This document shows positions 509 to 15,268 of a DNA stretch of 22,436 nucleotides, piece after piece; the stretch's first letter is position 1, and each line of letters opens with the position of its first letter. Where the stretch lies: positions 1 to 22,436 of the IMG/VR virus record IMGVR_UViG_3300034093_000302. One strand, written 5' to 3'. The notes under the pieces were generated by a model, which saw nothing but the letters and a program-made list of their open reading frames with translations, made no database searches and was not told where the DNA came from. The position numbers were made by a program, and so were the translations under genes. This stretch comes from a virus.

Positions 509-3349
509 TTATTTACATTGGTATTGAAAACAACACTCACAATCATCATAACTCTGTACTATACCAACTGTAGTAAATGGGCCCGGGCAGTTTGTTGTTT
601 TTAATACTGTCCAACATAGACCAGGGTAATCATTTAGTTCTACAACCTTACCTGAGAATATACTTAAGTTTTGATTAGTCAATAAAGTAATATCTGTATT
701 GTTACAGTTTGTAAGTAAGTAGCAAGGAGGTACTGCAATATATTGTTTGCATTCTTCACATGTTTCAAATGATTCTTCAACAGCATCAATACTAATCTCT
801 GTAGAGTTAGTGCAATCAAAAGTAATGTTTACATATAAACACTCATCAAGACCTGTTATCTTAAGCACCTGCCCTTCTAATGCGTTTAAGTAATCATTGG
901 ATAGACCGTAAGTATTAACCGTATATTCTACTAAACCTGTATCACAGTTAGTTAACGTATAACAGCATGGTACAAAACTATCAGCTGATGTACATTGGCA
1001 GTAAACAACATTGTTTATAGTAACAATTTCACAATTTCCGGTACATGTAATAGGATCTATTACGTCTGTACACAACAATGAATTTGATACAGACTTTGTA
1101 ATGCTATTTAAACTTTCCACTGTCCACTCTGCTGAAAACACAATCGGTGCTCCTGTTGCATAGTTACTTGGTAATTTTTTATAGGGACCCCCTAATGGTT
1201 GATCGTATTGCTTATAAATATCCGGACAATTAAATCCTGCAGGTACTACTGGATTATAGATTGCTTCCAGAGAAGCAGTAAAACCATTTGCAGTAGTTAT
1301 TGTATTATTAAAGGCAGCAGTGTCTAATAAACAAGGTATAGTAAACGTGCTATAGTTTGGAGCAGATTGTCCTACAAAGGCTCTTAGAGTTAGAGTTCTT
1401 TCATCTGAATTACCAATAACAACAAGGTTAATATCACAGTCATCTGTTATATCTGTAAATATAGGACTAGATCCTGCTTTGATTCCTTGAGCAAGATCCA
1501 TAGTTCTTTGGTAAATCCACATCTGATTTACTTGAAAATTAGTTTGAGTAAAGTTACCTAAAGGTGTTGTTATAGGATTGGTAAATACAAAAGTACCTTC
1601 TGTTAAGTTAGGTGCCGTACCACTACTTGGACAACCTGCTGTACTAAGTGCGGCAGATGGTAAATTAGCTGTTGTGCTATATCCTAAAAAATCAGATAGT
1701 TCAGTTACATCATTAGGCGTACCATCGGTAACCAATAATAATTTTCTAGCAGGTGGTGTAGAATTATTGATACGAGCACCTGAACTTGGTGTTGTAATCA
1801 TCTCATAAGCTACTCTTAAACCGTCCATTGTGTTGGTACTACCTGATCCTCCACCTGCATCATCTACAAGACCGTTAATTGCAGTATATAAAGTTGGTAC
1901 TTTACTTGTGTAGTAACCACCTGTTAATGTACCTGGTAAAAGAGAAGTAACACTACTACCATCATTAGAAAAACTTACTATACCAACTTGTACAGCACCT
2001 GATGAAATTCTCTGAGCGCTGTTAGCAACAGTATTTAAATTACCTGCTGCATCATATCCCAGTTCAATGGCATCAACAATTTGCTTTAAAAATGCTTTAT
2101 ATCTAATAGCTTCCTGACCAAGGTCTCCGCTAAAATCATCAGTTCCTGAAATAGAACCACCTGTGTCAACTACCAATACAATATCTGTTTCACATGGTAC
2201 AGTTGATCCAATACATTTATAGGTGTTACTAATAGGGTCAAGGCCATAGGTATAACCTGGAGGACAAGCTAGCGTATTCTGAATACATTGTTTTGTGGTA
2301 GGATCTAAAGTGAATCCTGGAGGACATCCGCAACCTGGTGTTACTTGTGTACTCCATAAAGAGTGTCCAGTAGAACCAGTTGCAAAATAATCTGTAGATG
2401 ACGTAGTCACCATTGAGGTATCAGCATCCGTAGCTTTATATACAAGACCTAAGTTATCACCTGGTAGATCATATGTAAAAAAACCTTCTGTGGCTGAGTA
2501 AAAACTTGCTCCAAAAATTCTTCTACCATCTAATACAAATCCATCTGGAAATACTTCTGACCAGGTTGTACCCATATCAGAACTATATACTATAGGCCCA
2601 TTAGCAGCAGATACCCATAAACTTGAATCAGTATCAAGAGTATAACTTGGATGATATCCTGCAAGGTTAGTATATTTTGGAGCAGCTCCATAATAACTAA
2701 CGTCAGACCAAGTATAAACAACTGAGAAGCTTGCTCCTCCGTCTATACTCTTGTAAACCTTTTTATCAGTTGCTGCAATAATAGTTTGTTGGTCAAAAGA
2801 CATACACAAACCAGATACAAGTTCACCAGCAGCTAGAACTACACCTCCATTAAGATACGTCCAGTTGTTTGCACCGTCTATTGTTTTAGCAATTGCTCCA
2901 CCATGACCTAAAATACCAGTGTCAACATCTGTAAAGTATATACTTCTAGCAATAGAAGAAAATGCTGTATTAAGACCTGTTACTTGAGAAGTATATGTAA
3001 GACCTCCATCTACAGATTTTATAACAGCGCATTGAGCAAAAAGGCCGCTACCTGCTATATAAATACCAGGGTTATTTAAACCAACTGATTCAGGTATAGA
3101 TATTTGAAAAGCTTTAGCAATACTAGGAGGAGTTACTTGGGTAACTGATGCCCCTGCATCCGTAGTATACCCAACATATACATCTCCAGCAATAATAGCA
3201 TAGTCAGGAAAGTTAGGCAGCTGTGCAGTTTTAACATCAAAAAGATCTGATGTTGTAAAACCAGAATAATCAGTCCACGCGCTTGTAGAATGATTATATA
3301 CTCTAAAGAGACCGTCTGATCCTGCTAGATATGTTTTACCGAAAGCCAT
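509..3349 (-). CDS. Multidomain surface protein: beta-propeller, von Willebrand A domain, tandem Cys-rich modules
   Basis: A 946-aa product starting MAFGKTYL with no evident signal peptide. Residues 1-330 carry repeated blades of the Ycf48/BNR type, visible as KSVDGGLTY (111-119), KTIDGANNW (155-163), KSIDGGASF (200-208) and YSSDMGTTW (255-263). Residues 340-387 hold Cys-Pro-Pro-Gly linkers (CPPGFTLDP, CPPGYTYGL). A von Willebrand A domain starts near 388: the metal-site motif reads D395-T-G-G-S399, with Thr505/507 and Asp542 (VTDGTPND) as the likely remaining ligands. Position 397 is Gly where the canonical DxSxS motif has Ser. The C-terminus has two Cys-rich modules (795-868 and 876-946), each opening C-Y-x-L-T-N-C and ending in a Cys cluster (ETCEEC, DDCECC). 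Such architecture suits binding to host surface or extracellular matrix, so a receptor-binding or tail-tip adhesin is inferred. It follows the zinc-ribbon gene by 11 nt. Confidence 0.85.
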   Translation of the reverse strand: MAFGKTYLAGSDGLFRVYNHSTSAWTDYSGFTTSDLFDVKTAQLPNFPDYAIIAGDVYVGYTTDAGASVTQVTPPSIAKAFQISIPESVGLNNPGIYIAGSGLFAQCAVIKSVDGGLTYTSQVTGLNTAFSSIARSIYFTDVDTGILGHGGAIAKTIDGANNWTYLNGGVVLAAGELVSGLCMSFDQQTIIAATDKKVYKSIDGGASFSVVYTWSDVSYYGAAPKYTNLAGYHPSYTLDTDSSLWVSAANGPIVYSSDMGTTWSEVFPDGFVLDGRRIFGASFYSATEGFFTYDLPGDNLGLVYKATDADTSMVTTSSTDYFATGSTGHSLWSTQVTPGCGCPPGFTLDPTTKQCIQNTLACPPGYTYGLDPISNTYKCIGSTVPCETDIVLVVDTGGSISGTDDFSGDLGQEAIRYKAFLKQIVDAIELGYDAAGNLNTVANSAQRISSGAVQVGIVSFSNDGSSVTSLLPGTLTGGYYTSKVPTLYTAINGLVDDAGGGSGSTNTMDGLRVAYEMITTPSSGARINNSTPPARKLLLVTDGTPNDVTELSDFLGYSTTANLPSAALSTAGCPSSGTAPNLTEGTFVFTNPITTPLGNFTQTNFQVNQMWIYQRTMDLAQGIKAGSSPIFTDITDDCDINLVVIGNSDERTLTLRAFVGQSAPNYSTFTIPCLLDTAAFNNTITTANGFTASLEAIYNPVVPAGFNCPDIYKQYDQPLGGPYKKLPSNYATGAPIVFSAEWTVESLNSITKSVSNSLLCTDVIDPITCTGNCEIVTINNVVYCQCTSADSFVPCCYTLTNCDTGLVEYTVNTYGLSNDYLNALEGQVLKITGLDECLYVNITFDCTNSTEISIDAVEESFETCEECKQYIAVPPCYLLTNCNNTDITLLTNQNLSIFSGKVVELNDYPGLCWTVLKTTNCPGPFTTVGIVQSYDDCECCFQYQCK

Positions 3350-5720: not shown

Positions 5721-6245
5721 TTATTTCAAGAAAAGTAATTTGTATTTAGCAGAATTAATAGAATCCTTAACTAAATCTAGGTTATTAACTATCTCTGAGT
5801 AAGGTAACATACCTTGAAGTTTACTAATAGAGTTATACATATCTCTAAGATAAGCTACCGCATCTGCTGTATTATCTAAGGTGCGTATAGGCATGTCTTT
5901 GTAACTTAAAAGTTTTTCAGCAGCTCCCTGATAACTTTCTACAAGAGTATCTGCAGAATCATGTAAGCCACCATAAAAATCACCAAGAGCTTTGTGAGCA
6001 GCATAAGAGCCATCTCCTTTTATTTTCAGGTGTAATCTATGAAAACTAATAGCAGCATTCATCATCTCTGTTGCGCATGCTGCAGTCATGTTATCTAATG
6101 AGCTACCACCAACGCCTGTATCAGGTGTAGGTTGTGGTTTTGCAGGCTCCTCTTTAGGTTGTGTTACAGTAACCTCAGGTCTGCTAATTTTCTTAACAGG
6201 TTCAGAGTCTCTCTTTAGTAAATTTCTTGACGGGGCTTCAGCCAT
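5721..6245 (-). CDS. Ferritin/Dps-like four-helix protein
   Basis: A 174-aa product. Residues 1-50 are a disordered, Pro/Lys-rich lead (KPQPTPDTG). From residue 50 on the sequence is helical, with the spacing of a Dps/ferritin-like bundle: helix A with FHRLHLK (His69, His72), helix B with AAHKALGDFYGGLHDSADTLVESYQG (His84, Asp99, Glu103), then two further helices to the end. This matches the pattern H-x-x-H ... H-K-x-L-x-x-F-Y-x-x-L-x-D-x-x-D-x-L-x-E of phage Dps-like proteins; I recall one such family as DUF5856, unverified. Whether iron is bound is uncertain, since the full ferroxidase set is not obvious. It sits between the adaptor-like gene (11 nt gap) and the abundant 499-aa protein, so it may be packaged in or on the virion, protecting DNA or acting structurally. 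Confidence 0.65.
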   Translation of the reverse strand: MAEAPSRNLLKRDSEPVKKISRPEVTVTQPKEEPAKPQPTPDTGVGGSSLDNMTAACATEMMNAAISFHRLHLKIKGDGSYAAHKALGDFYGGLHDSADTLVESYQGAAEKLLSYKDMPIRTLDNTADAVAYLRDMYNSISKLQGMLPYSEIVNNLDLVKDSINSAKYKLLFLK

Positions 6246-6256
6246 TATATTTAGTT

Positions 6257-6964
6257 TTATGTATTACTTTGTGTTGAAGTTTGAGCTATCTGATATTGAG
6301 TAATTGACTCCATATCTCCTGCTAAAATTTGTACTGCTTCATCAACTAAGATTTCAGCAATATCATCTTTGAATTCACATTCTACATCTGTTGTAGATAC
6401 CTGTAAACTATATGGGTCTGAGCAACCTGCAATTTGAACCAAGGCTGGAAATCTATAATACATTAAAATAGCTGTTGCTACTTCAAAGTCATTACCTGTA
6501 TAAACTCTAAGATGATTACCTACAAATGTGCAAAAGGTTTCTCCCCACTCAAAACTAGGTCTCTTAAGAGCATCGCTTAGTAATAGAGCTATGTTCTCTT
6601 CTTCTGCTAAGTATGTAACAGTCATGTCTCTTCTTGTCTCGCAACAATCTTTGTGAGCATGAATATTAACTTTCTTATAATACATGTAATTAGATGGTAG
6701 TATACCTGACTCATAATAGGTATCTCTAGAATTCATATCTAATCTCTCTTCTATAAGCAATCTTTGTAAGTCATCAACACGCATAGTAGTTTGCTCATCA
6801 CCAGTTTTGGTAATGTTCAATCCTTGAATCTGACGTCTTACCCATTCAACCTGACCCTTATTGAAAGCTTCAACCATCTGCCAACACTGAATGTTGTCAA
6901 AGTCTTGGCTATCAAGTTTATTGAGTCTCTGCTTAATTTTAAGCTGTAAGGTTGTGTTGTTCAT
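6257..6964 (-). CDS. Putative head-tail adaptor / neck protein
   Basis: A 235-aa product with no confident family match by eye. The N-terminus (LQLKIKQRLNKLDSQDFDNI) and the segment with VEAFNKGQVEWVRRQ are helical. A centre of beta strands contains ILPSNYMYYKKVNIHAH, a pattern (L-P-x-x-Y) often seen in phage neck and connector-ring proteins. The C-terminal helix EFKDDIAEILVDEAVQILAGDMESITQYQ resembles the 'E-I-x-x-x-A-V-x-x-x-x-G-D' ending of head-completion adaptors. Start and stop overlap its upstream neighbour by one nucleotide (TAATG), so translation is likely coupled. Position after the head genes and before the putative tail genes fits an adaptor or ring protein; that role is inferred. 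Confidence 0.6.
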   Translation of the reverse strand: MNNTTLQLKIKQRLNKLDSQDFDNIQCWQMVEAFNKGQVEWVRRQIQGLNITKTGDEQTTMRVDDLQRLLIEERLDMNSRDTYYESGILPSNYMYYKKVNIHAHKDCCETRRDMTVTYLAEEENIALLLSDALKRPSFEWGETFCTFVGNHLRVYTGNDFEVATAILMYYRFPALVQIAGCSDPYSLQVSTTDVECEFKDDIAEILVDEAVQILAGDMESITQYQIAQTSTQSNT

Positions 6965-7437
6965 TATTTTTTGCTTTTGCCTTTTTTAATGGTACCGCCT
7001 AGCTTAGATGGTTTGTTATAACTAACATCTACTTTTATAGGGACTTTTCTTTTCTTTCCAACGGTGCCTTCATAACTTACACCAGCATTAACTTTTTTAG
7101 CAGCTGGATCATAACCAACGTTTGCACCAAAGCCTCCTTTACCAGTATAACCAGCTTTATAGGTACCTACGCTTAAAGGTTTATCTGCATTTAGATTAGT
7201 CTTCATACCTGCATTAAAAGAACCAATTTTAAATGATGCATCAAGCGGTTTAGGTGCTCTTGGTACACCAAGTGGACCAATTTCAGGAGGAGGCAGAATA
7301 CCATCAAAAGGGCCACCATTATCTTTTTTAGTTAATGACTTTTTAAAAGCTTGCATTGAAGCATTAGCTTTCTTATAGGCTTCAACTTTACTATTAGTAA
7401 AGTGTGCAATTGGATGAATCTTCTTTGCTGCTTTCAT
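6964..7437 (-). CDS. Unknown basic protein with Gly-rich beta segment, 157 aa
   Basis: Starts MKAAKKIHPIAHFTN and ends in a Lys-rich tail (GGTIKKGKSKK). The first 40 residues look helical and basic, followed by a Pro-rich linker (ILPPPEIGPLGVPRAPKP). Residues 70-140 alternate hydrophobic and Gly/Lys positions with short repeats (SVGTYKAGYTGKGGFG, VGYDPAAKKVNAGVSYEG), suggesting a small beta-barrel or meander. The tail contains the GG-x-I-x-K-x-K motif shared by several neighbours. The gene overlaps its two neighbours by one nucleotide each (at 6964 and 7437), so it is translationally coupled to both. No function is known; a virion-internal or DNA-associated role is a guess from charge and context. 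Confidence 0.7.
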   Translation of the reverse strand: MKAAKKIHPIAHFTNSKVEAYKKANASMQAFKKSLTKKDNGGPFDGILPPPEIGPLGVPRAPKPLDASFKIGSFNAGMKTNLNADKPLSVGTYKAGYTGKGGFGANVGYDPAAKKVNAGVSYEGTVGKKRKVPIKVDVSYNKPSKLGGTIKKGKSKK

Positions 7438-8636
7438 TATCCTTTAACTCTTTTTAATCTTGGGTTAGCTGCCTTTGCTTTAGCAGAAGCCTTACGCGTA
7501 CCAGCAGCTAGTATAGCTCCAGCAGCTTTTTTAGATAATCCTTGCTTAGCAGCAATCTTTGCTTGTACTGCTTTAAATCCAGGATGCTTTACACCACCTC
7601 CTTTAGCCATGTTACCACCAGCCATTGGTTTATTTCCTAAACGCGTTTGAATAGGAGAAGATATAACAGGACCTCCTTTAGCCATTTTCTTTTTAACCAT
7701 ACCACCTTTTGACATAGAAGCTTCAGTATAATTAGTTAAAGCATCGCGTTCTTTACGTAATGCACCTCTCTTATCTCCTATAGCATAAACTTTATCCAGT
7801 AATCTACGCTCTCTCTTTTCATTTGTAGAATTATTGTATCTACTTTGAATTCTGTGTGATTTATTTTTTAAACGATCCATTTTATTATCTATTCTACCAG
7901 CTTTCTTTATACGATCTCTTGCACTCATTGTTTCTTCTGCTACGGGTGGAGTTGATTGAACACCAGGTTTTGGTATCATGGATGTAGATCCAGTTGGAGG
8001 AGTCTTTTTCATAGCTTGACGATCTCCTACCATTTTGGGGTTTGGTTTCATGGCTGACATCATTCTAGTATCTTCCATTCCCCTCATAGGAGCAGGGGGT
8101 GTAGTAGCAGGGGGTGTACTAGTAGTAGGTTTTTTAGGATCTCCTGTCATGCCACCACCTACGTCATACCTTTTTTTTTTGGTAACCATACCTCCTCTCC
8201 TCATAGAACCACCTGTTAAAGGATTAATAGTTGGGCTACCTGCTTTTTTTGAGTCTTTCTTCTCTTCTTTAAGAACTCTTACTTTAGCTCTAAGTTGCTG
8301 CCTTTCACTTGGTGCAGAAACCTTCTCACTACGGTTAGCTTTTATTTCATTAAGCTTGTTACCTACAGCTTCTTTAGCACCATAAAAAGATTTACGAACT
8401 CCACTAGCATAATCAGAAGCAACACCTTTAATAGTAGGTATTGTCTTTGTAGTTGAAACAGTACCTTGTTTACCTGGTCTGTCAACAGTTTTAGTTTTAA
8501 CAATAGTCTTAGAGTAACCTCCAGGATTAGTTGTTACAGTTCTTGTTTTTACTTTAGGTGGGTTACCATTAGTACCACCATCATTATACTTTTTCTTTTT
8601 AGTAACAGTACCACCAATTTTAGCTGCGTTTCTCAT
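7437..8636 (-). CDS. Large, very basic low-complexity protein with repeated GG-K motifs
   Basis: A 399-aa Lys/Arg/Thr/Pro-rich product, largely disordered by composition. It repeats a short motif in which GG precedes a hydrophobic residue and a Lys/Arg cluster: IGGTVTKKKKYNDGG near the start, MRRGGMVTKKKRYDVGGG in the middle, MSKGGMVKKKMAKGG and MAKGGGVK toward the end. Residues 240-310 are highly charged and helical. The last 50 residues form an apparently ordered basic domain (HPGFKAVQAKIAAKQGLSKK ..., ending NPRLKRVKG) that I recall from many uncultured phage proteins. The motif repeats resemble a linear binding signal. It is coupled by a one-base overlap to the 157-aa gene. Role unknown; DNA condensation or capsid cargo is plausible. 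Confidence 0.75.
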   Translation of the reverse strand: MRNAAKIGGTVTKKKKYNDGGTNGNPPKVKTRTVTTNPGGYSKTIVKTKTVDRPGKQGTVSTTKTIPTIKGVASDYASGVRKSFYGAKEAVGNKLNEIKANRSEKVSAPSERQQLRAKVRVLKEEKKDSKKAGSPTINPLTGGSMRRGGMVTKKKRYDVGGGMTGDPKKPTTSTPPATTPPAPMRGMEDTRMMSAMKPNPKMVGDRQAMKKTPPTGSTSMIPKPGVQSTPPVAEETMSARDRIKKAGRIDNKMDRLKNKSHRIQSRYNNSTNEKRERRLLDKVYAIGDKRGALRKERDALTNYTEASMSKGGMVKKKMAKGGPVISSPIQTRLGNKPMAGGNMAKGGGVKHPGFKAVQAKIAAKQGLSKKAAGAILAAGTRKASAKAKAANPRLKRVKG

Positions 8637-8655
8637 TATATATAAGTTTTAATAT

Positions 8656-8928
8656 TTAGCAATTCCATTTTCTAAGTGATAAGGCTTTCCTTGTAGGTTT
8701 ACCTTTTTCATCTTTCATAGGTCCGGGCATTCCGGACATTCTAGCACAAAAACTTTTTCTTCTGTTAGCATCTTTGCTGCCAGCTTTTAACTTAGATGGT
8801 TTTGTAGTTACAGCTGTCTGTAACTTAGAACCAGGGTTTGCAGCTCTGTAAGATGCAACTCCTTTTTTGTTAAGCCCGCCTTTAGGATCTTTACCTTCTT
8901 TGCGAGTCCAAGCTGGTGTCTTTGCCAT
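8656..8928 (-). CDS. Small basic protein, DUF6321-like
   Basis: Starting at ATG 8928 gives 90 residues beginning MAKTPAWTRKEGKDPKGG. The frame also contains a TTG at 8964, but that would overlap the neighbour by 32 nt, and the recognised conserved family begins at M-A-K-x-P-A-W-T-R-K-E-G, so the ATG is preferred. Conserved-looking blocks are the opening, the middle A-N-P-G-S-K-L-x-T-A-V-T, the R-R-K-S-F-C-A-R-M block and the C-terminal R-K-W-N-C. I recall this arrangement in small proteins of marine phages and algal giant viruses, filed as DUF6321 (unverified). It follows the DUF5872-like gene by 4 nt. The function is not known; the charge suggests nucleic-acid contact. Confidence 0.75.
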   Translation of the reverse strand: MAKTPAWTRKEGKDPKGGLNKKGVASYRAANPGSKLQTAVTTKPSKLKAGSKDANRRKSFCARMSGMPGPMKDEKGKPTRKALSLRKWNC

Positions 8929-8932
8929 TAGC

Positions 8933-9271
8933 TTATGCTTTTTTAACTCTTGCTCCCATCCCAACTCTTGACTTCTCAGCTTTCTTAGAAGCTAGTTTAG
9001 ATGGAGTAAGTTCATACTTTGTTTTAGGAGTATCCTTAGATACTTTCTTGGTAGGTCTGCAATATTCATTCTTACCACCGGCTCCACAAGCTTTACCACT
9101 TTTAGTGTCTTGCCATTTCTCAGATTCCCATCTTTTTAGATCAGACCCCGCTTTAGTTTTTCTAACAGTACCTGATCCCTTTCTACATTTAGCAATAGCT
9201 TGAGAAGCCCTTGCTGAAGGGAAGACAGCATACTGTGCTTTTACTTTACTATAGCAAGCATCTTTAGGCAT
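8933..9271 (-). CDS. Small Cys-containing basic protein, DUF5872-like
   Basis: A 112-aa product with two recognisable blocks. Block one is DACYSKVKAQYAVFPSARAS followed by A-I-A-K-C-R-K (residues 4-31). Block two is LKRWESEKWQDTKSGKACG, then YCRPTKKVSKDTPKT (residues 45-84). Both recur in small proteins of marine phages and of large algal viruses, as I recall under DUF5872 (unverified). Two Cys in each block could bind zinc. The C-terminus is Lys/Ser-rich. It overlaps the 43-aa gene by one base (TAATG) and is followed 4 nt later by the DUF6321-like gene; the two families often occur together, again from memory. Function unknown. Confidence 0.8.
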   Translation of the reverse strand: MPKDACYSKVKAQYAVFPSARASQAIAKCRKGSGTVRKTKAGSDLKRWESEKWQDTKSGKACGAGGKNEYCRPTKKVSKDTPKTKYELTPSKLASKKAEKSRVGMGARVKKA

Positions 9272-9402
9272 TACTTCTTGCAGCCGCAGCCACCTTTTTT
9301 AGTAGGGTAACTAGATGTCAAAGCCCCGCCTCGTTTATAGGCAGGGGACTTTGAAGCACCTATTAATTTGTTCTTCTCAGTATTATTTAATATCTGATTC
9401 AT
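9271..9402 (-). CDS. Micro-protein with C-terminal GG-Cys-Gly-Cys motif, 43 aa
   Basis: Starts MNQILNNTEKNKLIGASK and ends KKGGCGCKK-stop. An R-G-G-A motif precedes the Cys tail. Its stop overlaps the next start by one base (TAATG at 9271) and it begins one base after the stop of the 71-aa gene, so it fits snugly into the operon. The tail is like the GG-K endings of its neighbours with two cysteines added, as in the CGCGCGTC end of the 184-aa protein. It is short, so reality rests on this packing and the shared motif. Confidence 0.65.
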   Translation of the reverse strand: MNQILNNTEKNKLIGASKSPAYKRGGALTSSYPTKKGGCGCKK

Positions 9403-9403
9403 C

Positions 9404-9619
9404 TTAGTAACCTCTACGCATTTGCGAAGCACCCTGTCTCTTAGGAGTAGGTACTGGTTTGTTTACACCCCCTGAAGACTTACCGGCAGATACCTTAGTA
9501 GCTTTAAGTGGTGTATTAACGTGACCTGATGATTTACCTAATGATACAGGTGTATAGTTAAATACTGATTTGCTGTTTGGATTAGTCTTGCAACCAACTC
9601 CTTTACCTGAAGCTTTCAT
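9404..9619 (-). CDS. Small basic protein with tandem GKSSG repeat, 71 aa
   Basis: Starts MKASGKGVGCKTNPNSK and ends QMRRGY. Residues 28-57 contain two copies of G-K-S-S-G-x-V-N-x-P separated by a short Lys/Ala spacer (S-L-G-K-S-S-G-H-V-N-T-P and S-A-G-K-S-S-G-G-V-N-K-P). One Cys is near the N-terminus. There is no hydrophobic core to suggest a stable fold; it is probably disordered. It lies between the basic 238-aa protein (18 nt gap) and the 43-aa gene (1 nt gap). The family was not recognised. Its basic, repeat-rich makeup fits the surrounding cluster. Confidence 0.65.
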   Translation of the reverse strand: MKASGKGVGCKTNPNSKSVFNYTPVSLGKSSGHVNTPLKATKVSAGKSSGGVNKPVPTPKRQGASQMRRGY

Positions 9620-9637
9620 TTTATATTGTTTTTATGT

Positions 9638-10354
9638 TTAACACTTTTTACTTTTCATAGCACCACCCAATCTCTTCTTACTGTACTTGTCAACTGTATT
9701 GTTCCAATCAGTCATACCAGGTACGCGCATGCGAGGAGTTTCTTTCTTTTTAGGAGGAGCTGGTTTTTTATACTTATCTTGTATAGCCTTTAAGTCCTCA
9801 ACAATTTTTTTAACATTATCAACCTTTACTTTACTTTTCTGCTCCATGTTTCTAGACTCTGGTTTAGTAATGTAAGTACCTTGTTGTTGTTTTTTTCTGT
9901 ACTCCTCATAGTTTTTCTTAGCGATAGCTAATTCTACAGCAGGACTATACTTTTTAGCAGGTGCCGGAGCAGGTGTCTTAGCTTTTGGAGTAGATTTTGG
10001 AGTAGACTTCTTAACAGGAGCTGTTTTCTTTACTGGTGCTGCTGGAGTTACTGAACGTGGAGTACTAGGTTTAGGACCAGTAAGTTGAGGTGCAGGCACT
10101 AGTCCTGTAGATCCACCTTTTGGTTCAATCTTAGTCATTCCCTTAGGCTCCATCTTTATCATGGGCTCTTTATTAGCTCTTGTTACAACTTTGTCGTTAA
10201 TCTTGTTAACTTTAGTAGCTGTTCTTTTTACTATCTTATCTACTTTAGCAGCAGTTCTAATAGTACGTGCATCTTGACGGTTTGTAATTCTCGCAGAGCG
10301 CACAGCTTGTCTTGATGCTTGACGAGCAGCTCTTACTGGGTTTTTTGGAGGCAT
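9638..10354 (-). CDS. Histone-H1-like basic protein, paralogue 1
   Basis: A 238-aa product starting MPPKNPVRAARQASRQAVR. The first 55 residues match the start of its upstream neighbour almost throughout (same M-P-P-K-N-P-V-R-A-A-R-Q-A, T-N-R-Q-D-x-R-T and R-T-A-T-K-x-x-x-I-N). Residues 85-135 are Pro/Lys/Ala/Thr-rich like a histone H1 tail (KKTAPVKKSTPKSTPKAKTP). Then comes a charged helix (AIAKKNYEEYRKKQQQG), and the end reads KRLGGAMKSKKC, the GG-K motif. Arg/Lys spacing every three to four residues in the N-terminus suggests an amphipathic basic helix. Tandem duplication with divergence is clear from sight. A DNA-binding or capsid-internal role is inferred. Confidence 0.8.
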   Translation of the reverse strand: MPPKNPVRAARQASRQAVRSARITNRQDARTIRTAAKVDKIVKRTATKVNKINDKVVTRANKEPMIKMEPKGMTKIEPKGGSTGLVPAPQLTGPKPSTPRSVTPAAPVKKTAPVKKSTPKSTPKAKTPAPAPAKKYSPAVELAIAKKNYEEYRKKQQQGTYITKPESRNMEQKSKVKVDNVKKIVEDLKAIQDKYKKPAPPKKKETPRMRVPGMTDWNNTVDKYSKKRLGGAMKSKKC

Positions 10355-10365
10355 TGTATTATATT

Positions 10366-11232
10366 TTATTTTTTACGTTTAATTGATCCACCCCTTCTCT
10401 TCGTGACATAGTTTCTTTTTACAGCAGGTCCTTCAGGAGCTTGTCCGTATGCATTATTTTTCATACGGTCAAAATTCTGAATACCTATATAGTCATTCTT
10501 AGAAGATGGTCCATAGCGGCCTACATCAGCTTTCTTCTTTTTACCAAAAGATATTTTATCTATGGCCCCCAATAAAGCTTTCTTAGCCTCATCCGCTTTA
10601 GCCTTATCTGTAAAGGTATATGGTAAAGTGTTTTGACGGGTCTCACCTTTCTTAGGATCTAAGAACATATCTGGTACATAACCGTAGTCATCCTTCTTTT
10701 TAACAGGTGCTGTTTTTTTCTTAACTGGAGCCGCCTTTTTAACTGGGGCAGCCTTCTTAGCAGGGGCAGCAGCTTTTTTAGCATCATCAGCAGTCTTTCT
10801 AGCAGCAGCTTCAGCAGCACGTCTCTTAGCATCTGCTGTCATTTGTTGAGATTGCTGTTGCGCTGCTGGGCTTTTATATGGAGCATAAGAAGGTCCTTTA
10901 GCTGCAGGAGCTTTAGGCTTAACACCATATGTAAGTAAGTCCTTACCAGTAAATCCTGTTTTAGGAGTTGTTTTAGTTGATGCTGTAGGAGTAGTAGCAG
11001 TAGACTTTTTCTCAACTGCTTTTGCAGCTGGGTATGCTTTTACTTTAGATTCTGTTTTAGGAGTGGGCTTAGCATTAATTCTAGCAATCTTAGTAGCTGT
11101 TCTTGCTTGTATATTAGCTATTTTTTTGCCGGTCCTAACTGTACGTTCATCTTGACGGTTGGTTACTCTAGCTGCTCGTACTTGTTGTCTACCGGCTTGT
11201 CTTGCTGCCCTAACTGGATTCTTTGGAGGCAT
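10366..11232 (-). CDS. Histone-H1-like basic protein, paralogue 2
   Basis: A 288-aa product sharing its N-terminal 55 residues with paralogue 1 (MPPKNPVRAARQAGRQQVR) and its C-terminal signature (KRRGGSIKRKK versus KRLGGAMKSKK). Between them it has a long low-complexity part: Thr/Lys/Pro segment, an Ala/Lys/Gln helix (QQQSQQMTADAKRRAAEAAA), then a run of A-P-V-K-K repeats, as in histone H1 and bacterial Hc1/AlgP-type proteins. Residues 195-270 look more ordered and include YGYVPDMFLDP and KADEAKKALLGAIDKISFG. It lies 33 nt after the 338-aa gene and 11 nt before paralogue 1. The organisation suggests a duplicated pair of DNA-condensing or capsid-cargo proteins. Confidence 0.8.
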   Translation of the reverse strand: MPPKNPVRAARQAGRQQVRAARVTNRQDERTVRTGKKIANIQARTATKIARINAKPTPKTESKVKAYPAAKAVEKKSTATTPTASTKTTPKTGFTGKDLLTYGVKPKAPAAKGPSYAPYKSPAAQQQSQQMTADAKRRAAEAAARKTADDAKKAAAPAKKAAPVKKAAPVKKKTAPVKKKDDYGYVPDMFLDPKKGETRQNTLPYTFTDKAKADEAKKALLGAIDKISFGKKKKADVGRYGPSSKNDYIGIQNFDRMKNNAYGQAPEGPAVKRNYVTKRRGGSIKRKK

Positions 11233-11265: not shown

Positions 11266-12282
11266 TTAAGAATTCCAATACTTCTCCACTTTTTTTGTAA
11301 TATCTTGAAGAAGTTCATCATTTAATGGATTCTTAAGATACTCAACAACATCCGCCTGGGTTCTTCCTAAAAGAGATGCACTATCCTTGTGATAGATAAA
11401 TCCATCTGCTTTTGCAATAACAACTTTATAATACACAGAGTCTTTTACAACACAGCGTAGTTTTAAAGTTTCCATATCTAGTGCACATGCATCTAAGAAG
11501 TTTTGTGCTGCACGGTTTCCAGATTTCTCAGTTCCTTCTCCTGTAATGAATCCATCCATGCTGTCATAGATTACATCATTTGAAGTATTCTTCTTATACT
11601 GGGCACCTGCTACGTCAACTACCTTAGCTACATATAACAGTTTATTTGTATTCTTATCAAACAATTTCTGCAACTCAGCAAGTGCTTTGTTACGTAATTT
11701 CTTAGTTTCAGTTTTAGTAGATACAGTTTCTTCATACTTATCTAAATAAAACTTTGGTGCTTGTTGACGTGAACGTGCATCTTCATAGCTTCTTGCAATA
11801 ATACTAAAACCTCCTGCATTAATAGCACAGATCTTAACCATATCATAAGGATCATTTGGATCCAAATAGATTGGAGTATTACCACACTTCATGTCAATCT
11901 TTCCCCAGAACTCATCATTGTCTGGTCTTAGCAATTCTACTTTACTCCAAAAGTCTTTATCTTCTGGGTCAAGAACATTAGATGCTAGCATTTGCTCAAG
12001 CTCGCATATAGTCTTTCTTATATCCATGATCTTAGCAGCACGTACTTCAGGATCTGGAATATTTCTAATGTCTGGAGCAAACTCATTAAGTCCTGTAACA
12101 TAGCGCTTAACGCCATTGTTCTCAAGACATGCTAATTGTTCAAAGTGTGTTACTCCCTCAAATAGAGAAAGTCCATACTGCTCAAGACCCATATTAGATA
12201 GTTTCCCATCAAAATAAGGTTTTACAGCCAACGGGCTGCGTTTATTATTAAACTTAGTTTCTACAAGTGTAAAGCTGCTCAT
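11266..12282 (-). CDS. Unknown virion-region protein, 338 aa
   Basis: Starts MSSFTLVETKFNNKRSPLAVKPYFDGKLSNMGLE at an ATG 4 nt after the AAAAACCAAC leader motif. No family was recognised. Visible parts: a beta-like N-terminus, a helical stretch with I-C-E-L-E-Q-M-L, a charged central helix (KTETKKLRNKALAELQKLF, about 188-206), and a mixed C-terminal region ending in a helix (DDITKKVEKYW-like). It contains no signal peptide, membrane segment or obvious catalytic motif. It begins the transcription block that follows the capsid terminator and is the first gene after the capsid protein, where capsid-associated, cargo or completion proteins usually lie. That is the only hint of function. Composition is balanced, unlike the basic proteins after it. 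Confidence 0.7.
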   Translation of the reverse strand: MSSFTLVETKFNNKRSPLAVKPYFDGKLSNMGLEQYGLSLFEGVTHFEQLACLENNGVKRYVTGLNEFAPDIRNIPDPEVRAAKIMDIRKTICELEQMLASNVLDPEDKDFWSKVELLRPDNDEFWGKIDMKCGNTPIYLDPNDPYDMVKICAINAGGFSIIARSYEDARSRQQAPKFYLDKYEETVSTKTETKKLRNKALAELQKLFDKNTNKLLYVAKVVDVAGAQYKKNTSNDVIYDSMDGFITGEGTEKSGNRAAQNFLDACALDMETLKLRCVVKDSVYYKVVIAKADGFIYHKDSASLLGRTQADVVEYLKNPLNDELLQDITKKVEKYWNS

Positions 12283-12372: not shown

Positions 12373-13995
12373 TTAGAATGATCCACCAGTGATTGGGTTA
12401 CGCATAACAATCTTCAATACTTTGGTTGGGTCTTTAACCCAGATCGCAGGCATTGTTTGAGACATGTATACACGGTATCCGTTAAACTGTCCAGAGCTTT
12501 GGAAACCTTGGGTACGTCCCATGTAATCCATAGTTCCGTTCTGGTACCACCACTTCAATTGGTTATCCCAATCTAATTTCAACAAGTAGATGTTGTCATT
12601 AGTGTTGTCAGTGATATCAAAAATGATGAATGAATAAGAAGACAATGGGAAACCATCAATGATTGGGTTTTCAATGTCATTGGTATGTAAGTTGTCAAAC
12701 GCTGGATTCAACACAAACTTAACGTTAGCCAAGAATGGGATAACATAAGAAGTGTAAGCAAATCCAAAGTTCAAATCCATACCTGAACCAGTGATAGCTC
12801 CGATGTCATGAGCTTGGATCAACAATCCAGAAGCCATTGCCTCACGCTTGATTGCCTCATTAACCATACGCATACCACCCATACCAGTTTGTACAATCAA
12901 CTGACGCTTAGGGTCTGGACCTTGAAAGTCAACCTTACCAGCATAGAAGTTGTAAATCTCTGAACGGAACAAATCCAAGTTGAAGTTAGACTTGTTGTAG
13001 ATACGCTTGAATGAGTTATCCAATTGTCTCCAAAGACCCACAGACAAACGGATATCATCTGGACCATCTTGACGCACACGTCCACCTTGTCCCCACATTA
13101 AGTAAGTCTCAATGTCAGTTGCTACTTTAGTCAAGTGAGCTGCTTCCATTGCAGTCAAGAATGTACGAGATAATGAACCATTATCCATAGCACGCTTAAC
13201 ATAATCCTTACCCATGCGTGAAACCATAGTCTCAAGACTAGTTACAGCTGGATCAGTTGTTTTGTCAAAGTTACGCCAGATCTCTACTACAGGTACAGTA
13301 CCATCTGCTTTCATTCCACCTTTGATCATAAGATCAGCGCGAGAAGATACAGAATAGTGTACGTGTGCTTCTGATCCTCCTACAAAGTTGTAGAATTCAC
13401 GGAAACCAGTAGCAGTTACAATGTCAGAGAAACGCTCTCCGTACTCACCACGAGCAGAACCTTTACGGTAAAGCTTAGTACCAGGAGTTAAGTAATCTGC
13501 ACTAAGTCCATAAGATGAATCATTGTTCACCAATTGAACTGTGTATAAGAAAGCATCACCTAGAGGAATAATATCATCTGCAGTGATGTACATCTCAGCA
13601 CCGTTGTATTTGTCATAAGTGATTATATCACCATGTCCAAATTCTCTGCGTGAGATTTTGATTTGGAAGGTTTGTCCGTCAACACCTACGTTGTCAAATG
13701 AACCACCATTCTCTTCTAAGTCAACAATGTAAGGAAGATCCATTACAACTGGTGTTTGCCACTTGTACTCTCCACGAGCATTATTAACATTAATTACGTT
13801 CTTTCCACCAAAGCTAGACATTTGGTACAAAGGCATTTCTACCTTTTGCGCCATTGCCCAAAGATCCACTGGTCCTAAGTCCATAGGTTCAGCGTTCTTG
13901 AGCATGTTAACCAAGTGGTAAGAATCTACGTGTGAACTAGCTGCGTAGTTGGTATCTCGTAGAAATATACCATTGTTTAAAACTGGAGTTGCCAT
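12373..13995 (-). CDS. Major capsid protein (candidate, HK97-like)
   Basis: A 540-aa product starting MATPVLNNGIFLRDTNYAAS. It is the gene directly after the acidic scaffold-like protein and downstream of terminase and portal, which is the usual capsid position. It has no signal peptide and no low-complexity region, and a length typical of major capsid proteins of large Bacteroidota phages. Alternating hydrophobic and polar strands (YKWQTPVVMDLPYIVDLEE), a long central helical part (about 265-330) with many charged residues, and a beta-rich end (YVIPFLANVKFVLNP ... IDGFPLSSYSFIIFDI) fit an HK97-type fold, though that cannot be proved by eye. Its own strong terminator and the AACCCTTAAA leader support abundant expression. 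No maturation protease gene is visible in the window, so proteolytic processing is not indicated. Confidence 0.8.
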   Translation of the reverse strand: MATPVLNNGIFLRDTNYAASSHVDSYHLVNMLKNAEPMDLGPVDLWAMAQKVEMPLYQMSSFGGKNVINVNNARGEYKWQTPVVMDLPYIVDLEENGGSFDNVGVDGQTFQIKISRREFGHGDIITYDKYNGAEMYITADDIIPLGDAFLYTVQLVNNDSSYGLSADYLTPGTKLYRKGSARGEYGERFSDIVTATGFREFYNFVGGSEAHVHYSVSSRADLMIKGGMKADGTVPVVEIWRNFDKTTDPAVTSLETMVSRMGKDYVKRAMDNGSLSRTFLTAMEAAHLTKVATDIETYLMWGQGGRVRQDGPDDIRLSVGLWRQLDNSFKRIYNKSNFNLDLFRSEIYNFYAGKVDFQGPDPKRQLIVQTGMGGMRMVNEAIKREAMASGLLIQAHDIGAITGSGMDLNFGFAYTSYVIPFLANVKFVLNPAFDNLHTNDIENPIIDGFPLSSYSFIIFDITDNTNDNIYLLKLDWDNQLKWWYQNGTMDYMGRTQGFQSSGQFNGYRVYMSQTMPAIWVKDPTKVLKIVMRNPITGGSF

Positions 13996-14026: not shown

Positions 14027-15268
14027 TTATCTTTTAAAGAAATTACCACTGCGTGGAATTTTTCTTTGTGTTGTTTCTTCTTGTTCTACAACTGGAGTAC
14101 TGCTTGCCATCTTAGCTTGTTCAGTCTTAAGCTGACGTACTGTCTTCTCCACTTGTGCATTTTTGCCTTGTTCCTTTACTCTTGCTTCATATCCTTCTTC
14201 ATCAGCAAGTAACCAAAGTACCTTAGCAATTTTATTATAATCAGGTTCTACATACTGGTATTTCTCCAATAAGTGACCTAACATATTAGTTTGCTTACCA
14301 GAGATAGATGGGTAGTTAGGTTGTACAAGACCAGTGTATAACATACCTTGAGTCTTCTTATCTATCTTAATCCCATTAACCTCACCTGCATTTAATGTAT
14401 TATATACATTTTGCATGTAAGCGTTTGCTGCTGCAGTTTGTTGTTTACGCATGTTCTCTTGCTGTGCAAGTTTCTGCGCTACAATGTGTTCCTGCATTTT
14501 ATCCAACTTTGGTTTGAACTTAAGAGCTTTTGCTTCTAAATCTCCACGGTCTTTCCAACCATAGATCTCTTCATCAATCTCTTCATCATTACCAAAGCTT
14601 GTAGCTCTAAGGTATTCCCGTATAATTTGTTCTTGGTCCTTAGTATCCTTTGGATCAAGTTGACGGTGTTCTTCTACCTCAGACAGCACGCGGAACAATC
14701 CTTTAAGATCTTCTCCGCCATCTGCTACATATTTTGCAGCTACCTGTAGTTCTTCTGGAAGTGAATCAAAAAATTCAACAGGAGTAGATTGACGGATCTG
14801 ATTCTCTTTGTCAGCAATGTTTGCTTCTAATAGTTCTTCAAAATCCTTTTCAGTGTAATCATCTAAAGACTTGTCATCTTCAAATGGTACAATCTGTCCC
14901 TTTTCAATAAGCTTGTTAAACAATTTGCTTAATCCACTTTTATCTACTTTAGGACGTCCTGGTTTTGGTTGATTGTCTTCCTGATCATTCTCTTCAGATC
15001 CACCTAAGAACTCTTTGTCAAGTTCTTTAAGTACATCTGCTGGGTTTTCTGCAGGTTTCTTATCTTCATTTGATTCTGAGTCTTCTTCATCAGAATCTTT
15101 GTCAAGGAAAGAGAGATCAGTAGAAGGCTGAGTAAACATACTAGGCTTCTTCTCTGTCTCAGGGAGCATAACGTTTTCTGCACCCGGTGTGCCTAGAATT
15201 TCATCTAGGTTCATCTCTACTTGTTCAATAGAGGTAGTTTCTTGGTTGGTTTTTTCTTCAGTAGCCAT
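14027..15268 (-). CDS. Acidic scaffold-like protein
   Basis: A 413-aa product whose first 130 residues are strongly acidic and disordered (LDKDSDEEDSESNEDKK, LKELDKEFLGGSEENDQEDNQ). The middle has helical blocks, for example KSGLSKLFNKLIEKGQIVPF and EQIIREYLRA. Residues 250-300 form a predicted coiled coil (KPKLDKMQEHIVAQKLAQQEN), and the C-terminus is short and basic (RKIPRSGNFFKR). An acidic, coiled-coil protein placed between portal and capsid genes is the usual scaffold profile, with a basic end often contacting capsid. It starts 4 nt after the AAAAACCAAC leader motif and about 36 nt downstream of a promoter-like element. The assignment rests on composition and gene order, not on a recognised family. 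Confidence 0.65.
   Translation of the reverse strand: MATEEKTNQETTSIEQVEMNLDEILGTPGAENVMLPETEKKPSMFTQPSTDLSFLDKDSDEEDSESNEDKKPAENPADVLKELDKEFLGGSEENDQEDNQPKPGRPKVDKSGLSKLFNKLIEKGQIVPFEDDKSLDDYTEKDFEELLEANIADKENQIRQSTPVEFFDSLPEELQVAAKYVADGGEDLKGLFRVLSEVEEHRQLDPKDTKDQEQIIREYLRATSFGNDEEIDEEIYGWKDRGDLEAKALKFKPKLDKMQEHIVAQKLAQQENMRKQQTAAANAYMQNVYNTLNAGEVNGIKIDKKTQGMLYTGLVQPNYPSISGKQTNMLGHLLEKYQYVEPDYNKIAKVLWLLADEEGYEARVKEQGKNAQVEKTVRQLKTEQAKMASSTPVVEQEETTQRKIPRSGNFFKR

Follow-up and report, generated by a model that had tools for sequence, protein, structure and literature searches.

In bacteriophage T4, the capsid-targeting sequence (CTS) is located at the N-terminus, from where the prohead protease removes it. 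The internal proteins of T4 form a highly diverse set, of which the sole common feature is the sequence targeting them into the precursor scaffolding core, and their lysines touch the phosphates of DNA (PMC3012670). Among the crassviruses, the cargo proteins gp45 and gp46 of phiCrAss001 are stored in the virion together with subunits of RNA polymerase (PMC10172136). Here we describe an island of eight small basic proteins (isoelectric point, pI, about 10-11; Lys plus Arg content 18-27%) in the viral record IMGVR_UViG_3300034093_000302, of which the whole stretch of 22,436 nucleotides was analysed (hereafter the window). The island lies among the head genes, and several of its proteins carry a common short tag consisting of Gly-Gly, a hydrophobic residue and Lys.

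The island resembles the T4 internal proteins IPI-III in that both are diverse, fast-changing, small, Lys-rich and encoded among head genes, and share one short signal. The T4 CTS, however, is N-terminal, of another sequence and cleaved, whereas the island tag is mostly C-terminal and no S78 prohead protease was found in 11 records. Identity of the tag with the T4 CTS was ruled out because the sequence differs and the tag is mostly at the opposite end; an N-terminus similar to MKTYQEFIxEA was present in none of the eight window proteins. By analogy, the island system would work like the T4 internal proteins with their targeting sequence, being non-homologous to them. With the phiCrAss001 cargo, the island proteins as proposed below would share the property of being crassvirus proteins stored in the virion; in contrast, the cargo proteins are large, mostly alpha-helical and encoded in another part of the genome.

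A common tag across diverse proteins

The common motif was K-[M/Y/F]-x-x-G-G-[S/T/A/M]-[V/I/M]-K, which often formed the exact C-terminus as (K)KGG[STA][VI]K-x-KK. A preliminary description of the window had listed peptides of this kind in five or more neighbouring proteins, and all the quoted peptides are present at correct coordinates (Table 1). The motif is carried by the 157-, 238-, 288- and 399-aa proteins, while the DUF6321, DUF5872 and 71-aa proteins have no convincing copy, and the listed GGCGCKK belongs to a separate open reading frame (ORF) of 43 aa as a weak, Cys-rich variant. The motif had no match in the 14 remaining proteins of the window. In composition-preserving shuffles of the window alone, p was below 0.001 only for the 399-aa protein (four matches to the regular expression, including the three clear ones in Table 1), about 0.02 for the 238-aa protein and 0.06-0.11 for the other matching proteins. 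Within the window, only the 399-aa protein was thus clearly above chance, and the exclusion of chance is based on the comparison across relatives.

The relatives made the case stronger. In the first 34 loci, the strict C-terminal tag was found in 24 of 160 non-redundant basic ORFs, as against 0.09-0.29 expected from three kinds of shuffle (at most 4 over 1000 shuffles; 0 in reversed sequences). In 105 related loci, of which the counts are partly non-independent because some contigs came from both searches, 44 of 345 such ORFs carried it (0.28-0.76 in shuffles). The rules for calling ORFs were simple, so that errors are possible among the small ones; the ORFs were made non-redundant by C-terminal sequence, and overlapping tiles of phage contigs were joined solely for placing ORFs. 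The core [MYF]xxGGx[VIM][KRT] occurred 66 times (1.3 expected). Taking the first Gly as position 0, enrichment was observed for Met (6.2-fold), Tyr (4.8-fold) and Phe (3.4-fold) at -3, K/Q at -2, S/T/M/A at +2, V/M/I at +3 and K at +4. The shuffles and reversed controls rule out the motif as a chance product of Lys/Gly-rich proteins. A literature search for the tag strings found no paper.

After removal of the last 18 residues, the tagged proteins fell into 31 sequence groups, which is the combination of diverse bodies and one short signal known from the T4 internal proteins. Some of these groups are visibly related, for instance several with MKKTNK...NPITF, and independent origins are therefore fewer than 31. 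A common C-terminus could also be a functionless remnant of common descent or of recombination between neighbouring genes, as the shared N-termini of the 238- and 288-aa proteins and the bias of the first Gly codon (GGT in 40 of 46 tags, compared with a usage of 58%) might indicate. However, the second Gly codon is near background, Gly codons within a locus are identical in only 17 of 32 cases, and the Ser, Thr, Val and Ile codons vary, which favours selection at the peptide level over a recent DNA copying event. The bodies diverge while the tag stays, and we consider such a remnant very improbable. In an alignment of the 157-aa protein with its putative relatives, GG and a following Lys are invariant even though distant members share 20-33% identity with it.

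Location of the tagged genes in one slot

The minus-strand genes of the window code first for a weakly HU-like protein and a PD-(D/E)XK nuclease, next for the terminase (phrog_6681), the portal (phrog_6547) and a probable scaffold (14027-15268), and then for the crassvirus major capsid protein (MCP) and a 338-aa protein; these are followed by the genes of the eight small basic proteins, by that of a 235-aa virion protein and by more genes. The placement of the cluster between capsid and neck genes, as given in the preliminary description, agrees with its borders, the 338-aa gene after the MCP gene and the 235-aa virion gene. The MCP profile PF23898 scored 115.6 bits against its curated cut-off of 27, and by this match the crass-like phage is assigned to Crassvirales. 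Relatives of the MCP are plentiful, being encoded by at least 590 stretches in IMG/VR. Among the annotated phages of the collection, the closest are Leptolyngbya phage Lbo-JY46, with an MCP identity of 28%, and the two Cellulophaga phages phi17:2 and phi4:1. The lineage is a large family of uncultured water-dwelling crAss-like phages.

Across 123 loci having both border genes, the slot between them measured 9-4908 bp: it was empty (9-27 bp) in 32 loci, indicating that the island is accessory, and 145-4908 bp long in the remaining loci. Of the 60 tagged ORFs in the 123 mapped loci, 59 were inside the slot and one was between the scaffold and MCP genes; the empty-slot loci contained none within the sequence covered by the contigs. 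Among 729 ORFs called on six long contigs, all six strict tags were in the head cluster and none elsewhere. The homologues of both border genes overlap in Lbo-JY46. In phi17:2, the 235-aa homologue directly adjoins its upstream gene, for which, however, homology to the 338-aa protein could not be detected. The island is an exchangeable, hypervariable pool of Lys-rich proteins among head genes.

Tagged proteins beyond the crass-like lineage

Scanning IMG/VR for DNA encoding the tag gave 45 hits, which were classified by their neighbours: 26 in the slot, 10 with one 39-aa protein family and 9 others, several of which are crass-like late genes. The 39-aa family has the consensus MKKKLKPxPxxNKG...MGFxKKGGxVKxKK and no match in the phage collection. 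All ten of its hits are HTVC023P-like podoviruses, with the tag gene near portal and DUF6321 genes. In the two loci inspected out of these ten, the portal was phrog_1216 in both and the terminase phrog_38 in one, families unrelated to those of the window, and the L253 portal shared 64.6% identity with its counterpart in Pelagibacter phage HTVC027P. In this isolate, gp47 between portal gp43 and capsid gp59 carries MYKKGGSVKKKK at an internal, not C-terminal, position, and the same interval also contains DUF5872-like and DUF6321 genes. The basic block between portal and capsid genes of HTVC023P and HTVC027P is thus like the island in the core of the tag, in its neighbours and in its comparable place, but unlike the window in terminase and portal. 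The accessible part of the literature gave no description of this block: that of the HTVC027P transcriptome paper holds nothing on its genes, and that of a multigene-transfer paper on HTVC023P-type phages deals with curli and other auxiliary genes, the island being absent from it.

Two further families connect these phages. The family KFIQKAIKKPGSLRKSLGIKKGK links HTVC027P gp44 to crass-like islands, and the family GLYANIHAKR.RI...AAKTAKK is present in crass-like islands (L014, about 8720-8873) and in T7-like pelagiphages (HTVC168P gp30, L136:3843-3992).

In the phage collection, 545 records have a match to DUF6321. This family is a stand-alone gene between the scaffold and capsid genes in T7-like pelagiphages and one cyanopodovirus; in T4-like cyanophages, DUF6321 and DUF5872 domains occur within long proteins, Lys-rich for the most part, whose genes lie among those for neck and terminase. 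These gp114-type proteins (T4-GC 119), one of which was found in virions, have the two domains, the Lys-rich composition and the neighbourhood in common with the island, but differ from it in the fusion of the domains in one long protein and in the lack of the KKGG C-terminal tag. T4-GC 119 includes the DUF6321/DUF5872 protein of S-SM1.

Proposed head loading or DNA binding, and virion evidence

One tag on many bodies, its confinement to the head slot and its recurrence beside head genes in an unrelated lineage make a signal for loading into the head or onto DNA the best reading. The logic shared with T4, namely hypervariable, Lys-rich proteins encoded among head genes with one short element, favours internal head proteins with a docking tag. 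We consider it moderately probable that, as a whole, the island encodes internal head proteins that are exchangeable and in many cases carry a portable tag for head loading or DNA docking. The tag would be a common docking element taking unrelated proteins into the prohead and/or onto packaged DNA, where the Lys-rich bodies would neutralise the charge of DNA, and the proteins may be injected together with it. More tentatively, KKGG[STA][VI]K-x-KK might be a portable C-terminal head-loading tag used by unrelated aquatic lineages, crass-like and HTVC023P-like, as an independent counterpart of the T4 CTS and apparently without cleavage.

Alternatively, the tag could be a DNA-binding or charge-neutralising tail, and the proteins bearing it would be of a nucleoid type, condensing the genome ahead of packaging or in its course; GG would be a mere flexible hinge in front of the lysines. 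The basic composition and high pI of the island proteins, the contacts of T4 internal-protein lysines with DNA phosphates (PMC3012670) and the predicted model of the 157-aa protein, which is mostly disordered, are consistent with such a tail. However, the conserved hydrophobic residue at +3 (V/I/M), M/Y/F at -3 and the strict GG are more specific than charge alone requires, and other Lys-rich island proteins have no tag, making a simple tail rather unlikely. The distribution data do not separate a sorting signal from DNA binding. Accordingly, the earlier proposal of a signal for head loading or DNA binding agrees best with the distribution as long as the two functions are taken together, and it does not extend to the several cluster proteins without the motif.

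GG-X is the cleavage motif of some eukaryotic viral proteases. If GG were a maturation protease site, the tag would be removed during head maturation, and the internal copies in the 399-aa protein would give several cuts. The S78 prohead protease was, however, found in none of 11 records, in which the control worked; searches for S77 and C48 proteases gave no match, but their controls were silent too, so that absence cannot be inferred for these. We consider cleavage at GG improbable.

As for the virion, S-CREM2 ORF137 (108049-109521), which contains a DUF6321 match, appears in the published proteome of purified virions (4 unique peptides, 4.1% coverage); according to that study, some virion-associated proteins may have co-purified (PMC10665884). 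The neighbouring S-CREM2 gp136 (L140:4029-4742) is Lys-rich, starts with the CTS-like MQTFSMFFSEDA and was detected in the virion proteome with 8 peptides. Given this small number of ORF137 peptides, the warning on co-purification and virion data covering no tagged protein, the island proteins might be non-virion proteins that act late in infection, for instance on the nucleoid or ribosomes of the host cell, and merely be located in the late operon. This is improbable in view of their placement among head genes in unrelated lineages and of DUF6321 in S-CREM2 virions.

Several observations weigh against internal head proteins with a docking tag. The virion evidence so far is confined to untagged relatives. 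T4-CTS-like starts, which would speak in favour, are present in DUF6321 proteins of S-SZBM1 (MKTFKQYITEA) and marine virus AG-345-E15 (MKTFEQFTEG), but among the roughly 10 DUF6321 proteins sampled from T4-like phages these 2 are the only ones. The published virion table of S-SZBM1 has no entry matchable to its DUF6321 ORF; such negatives carry little weight, as trypsin is a poor choice for digesting Lys-rich proteins. Furthermore, a strictly tagged ORF was present in only 37 of 105 loci, many island proteins have no motif, and the large late (cargo-type) proteins of six related long contigs are without the tag.

By this last observation, use of the tag as a general cargo signal was ruled out. 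Some large late proteins share another short N-terminus, [KR]VRIKKxPQAxTG or KIRIIGLPKAQIG (related contigs G002:2327-5335, G006:50753-54178 and G003:53251-56073, and Lbo-JY46 77867-79321), and that of G003 repeats RKVRIKK at its C-terminus. This N-terminus may be another sorting signal, one used by large proteins of the cargo type.

Genes of the island and its surroundings

The coordinates of the island genes, the tag copies and the border genes are summarized in Table 1.

Table 1. Features of the head-gene region in the window.
Feature	Position	Strand	Basis or remark
Window, 22.4-kb virus record			coding on minus strand
Crassvirus MCP	12373..13995	-	PF23898, E 2.6e-33
Conserved 338-aa gene, upstream island border	11266..12282	-	Lbo-JY46 homologue adjoins ring homologue
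288-aa basic protein	10366..11232	-	ORF; motif-bearing
C-terminal tag KRRGGSIKRKK (288 aa)	10369..10401	-	motif match
238-aa basic protein	9638..10354	-	ORF; motif-bearing
C-terminal tag RLGGAMKSKKC (238 aa)	9641..9673	-	motif match
71-aa basic protein, no tag	9404..9619	-	ORF
43-aa ORF ending KKGGCGCKK	9271..9402	-	stop overlaps next start; small ORF conserved in L008
DUF5872 protein, 112 aa, no tag	8933..9271	-	PF19197, 49.5 bits (cut-off 27.5)
DUF6321 protein, 90 aa, no tag	8656..8928	-	PF19846, 87.6 bits (cut-off 28.5)
399-aa basic protein, several internal motif copies	7437..8636	-	shuffle p<0.001
Motif copy IGGTVTKKKK (399 aa)	8589..8618	-	regular-expression match
Motif copy RGGMVTKKKR (399 aa)	8169..8198	-	regular-expression match
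Motif copy KGGMVKKK (399 aa)	7686..7709	-	regular-expression match
HPGFKAVQ...RLKRVKG module, C-terminal (399 aa)	7440..7586	-	stand-alone 57-aa gene in L008
157-aa basic protein, last island gene before 235-aa gene	6964..7437	-	ORF; motif-bearing
C-terminal tag KLGGTIKKGKSKK (157 aa)	6967..7005	-	motif match
235-aa conserved virion protein, downstream island border	6257..6964	-	phrog_29507, 'virion structural protein'

The 338-aa gene occupies the position of the auxiliary capsid gene, which suggests a corresponding function. The 235-aa protein, homologous to phi17:2 gp64 (annotated as virion structural protein), is probably a neck or ring protein; since its profile gave nothing convincing against PDB sequences, the label 'ring' is based on PHROG and synteny. 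The DUF6321 protein starts with ATG in alignment with its relatives, and its structure model (predicted local distance difference test score, pLDDT, 73) had no PDB match, nor was a sequence relative found in PDB. The 238- and 288-aa genes (9638-11232) have about the first 35 residues in common, MPPKNPVRAARQA.RQ.VR.AR.TNRQD, showing a tandem duplication after which the remainder diverged.

Downstream of the 235-aa gene, and kept there in relatives, an acidic-neutral 174-aa protein (5721-6245) matches DUF5856 (PF19174) and phrog_858, annotated as starvation-inducible and Dps-like. A 946-aa acidic protein (509-3349) with a von Willebrand factor A domain (PF00092) and a Cys-rich end is possibly an adhesion or fibre protein.

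Implications

How small head proteins are chosen in phages other than T4 is largely open, and the tag of about 10 residues is a directly testable candidate. The environmental phages that carry it form an abundant group, and the isolate HTVC027P, with its laboratory host HTCC1062, offers a test system. If the proposal is true, the tag could serve to load foreign proteins into heads. Widespread families of no known function, such as DUF6321, would also gain a possible role, and the tag would mark a gene pool, next to the capsid genes, that is common to unrelated aquatic phages.

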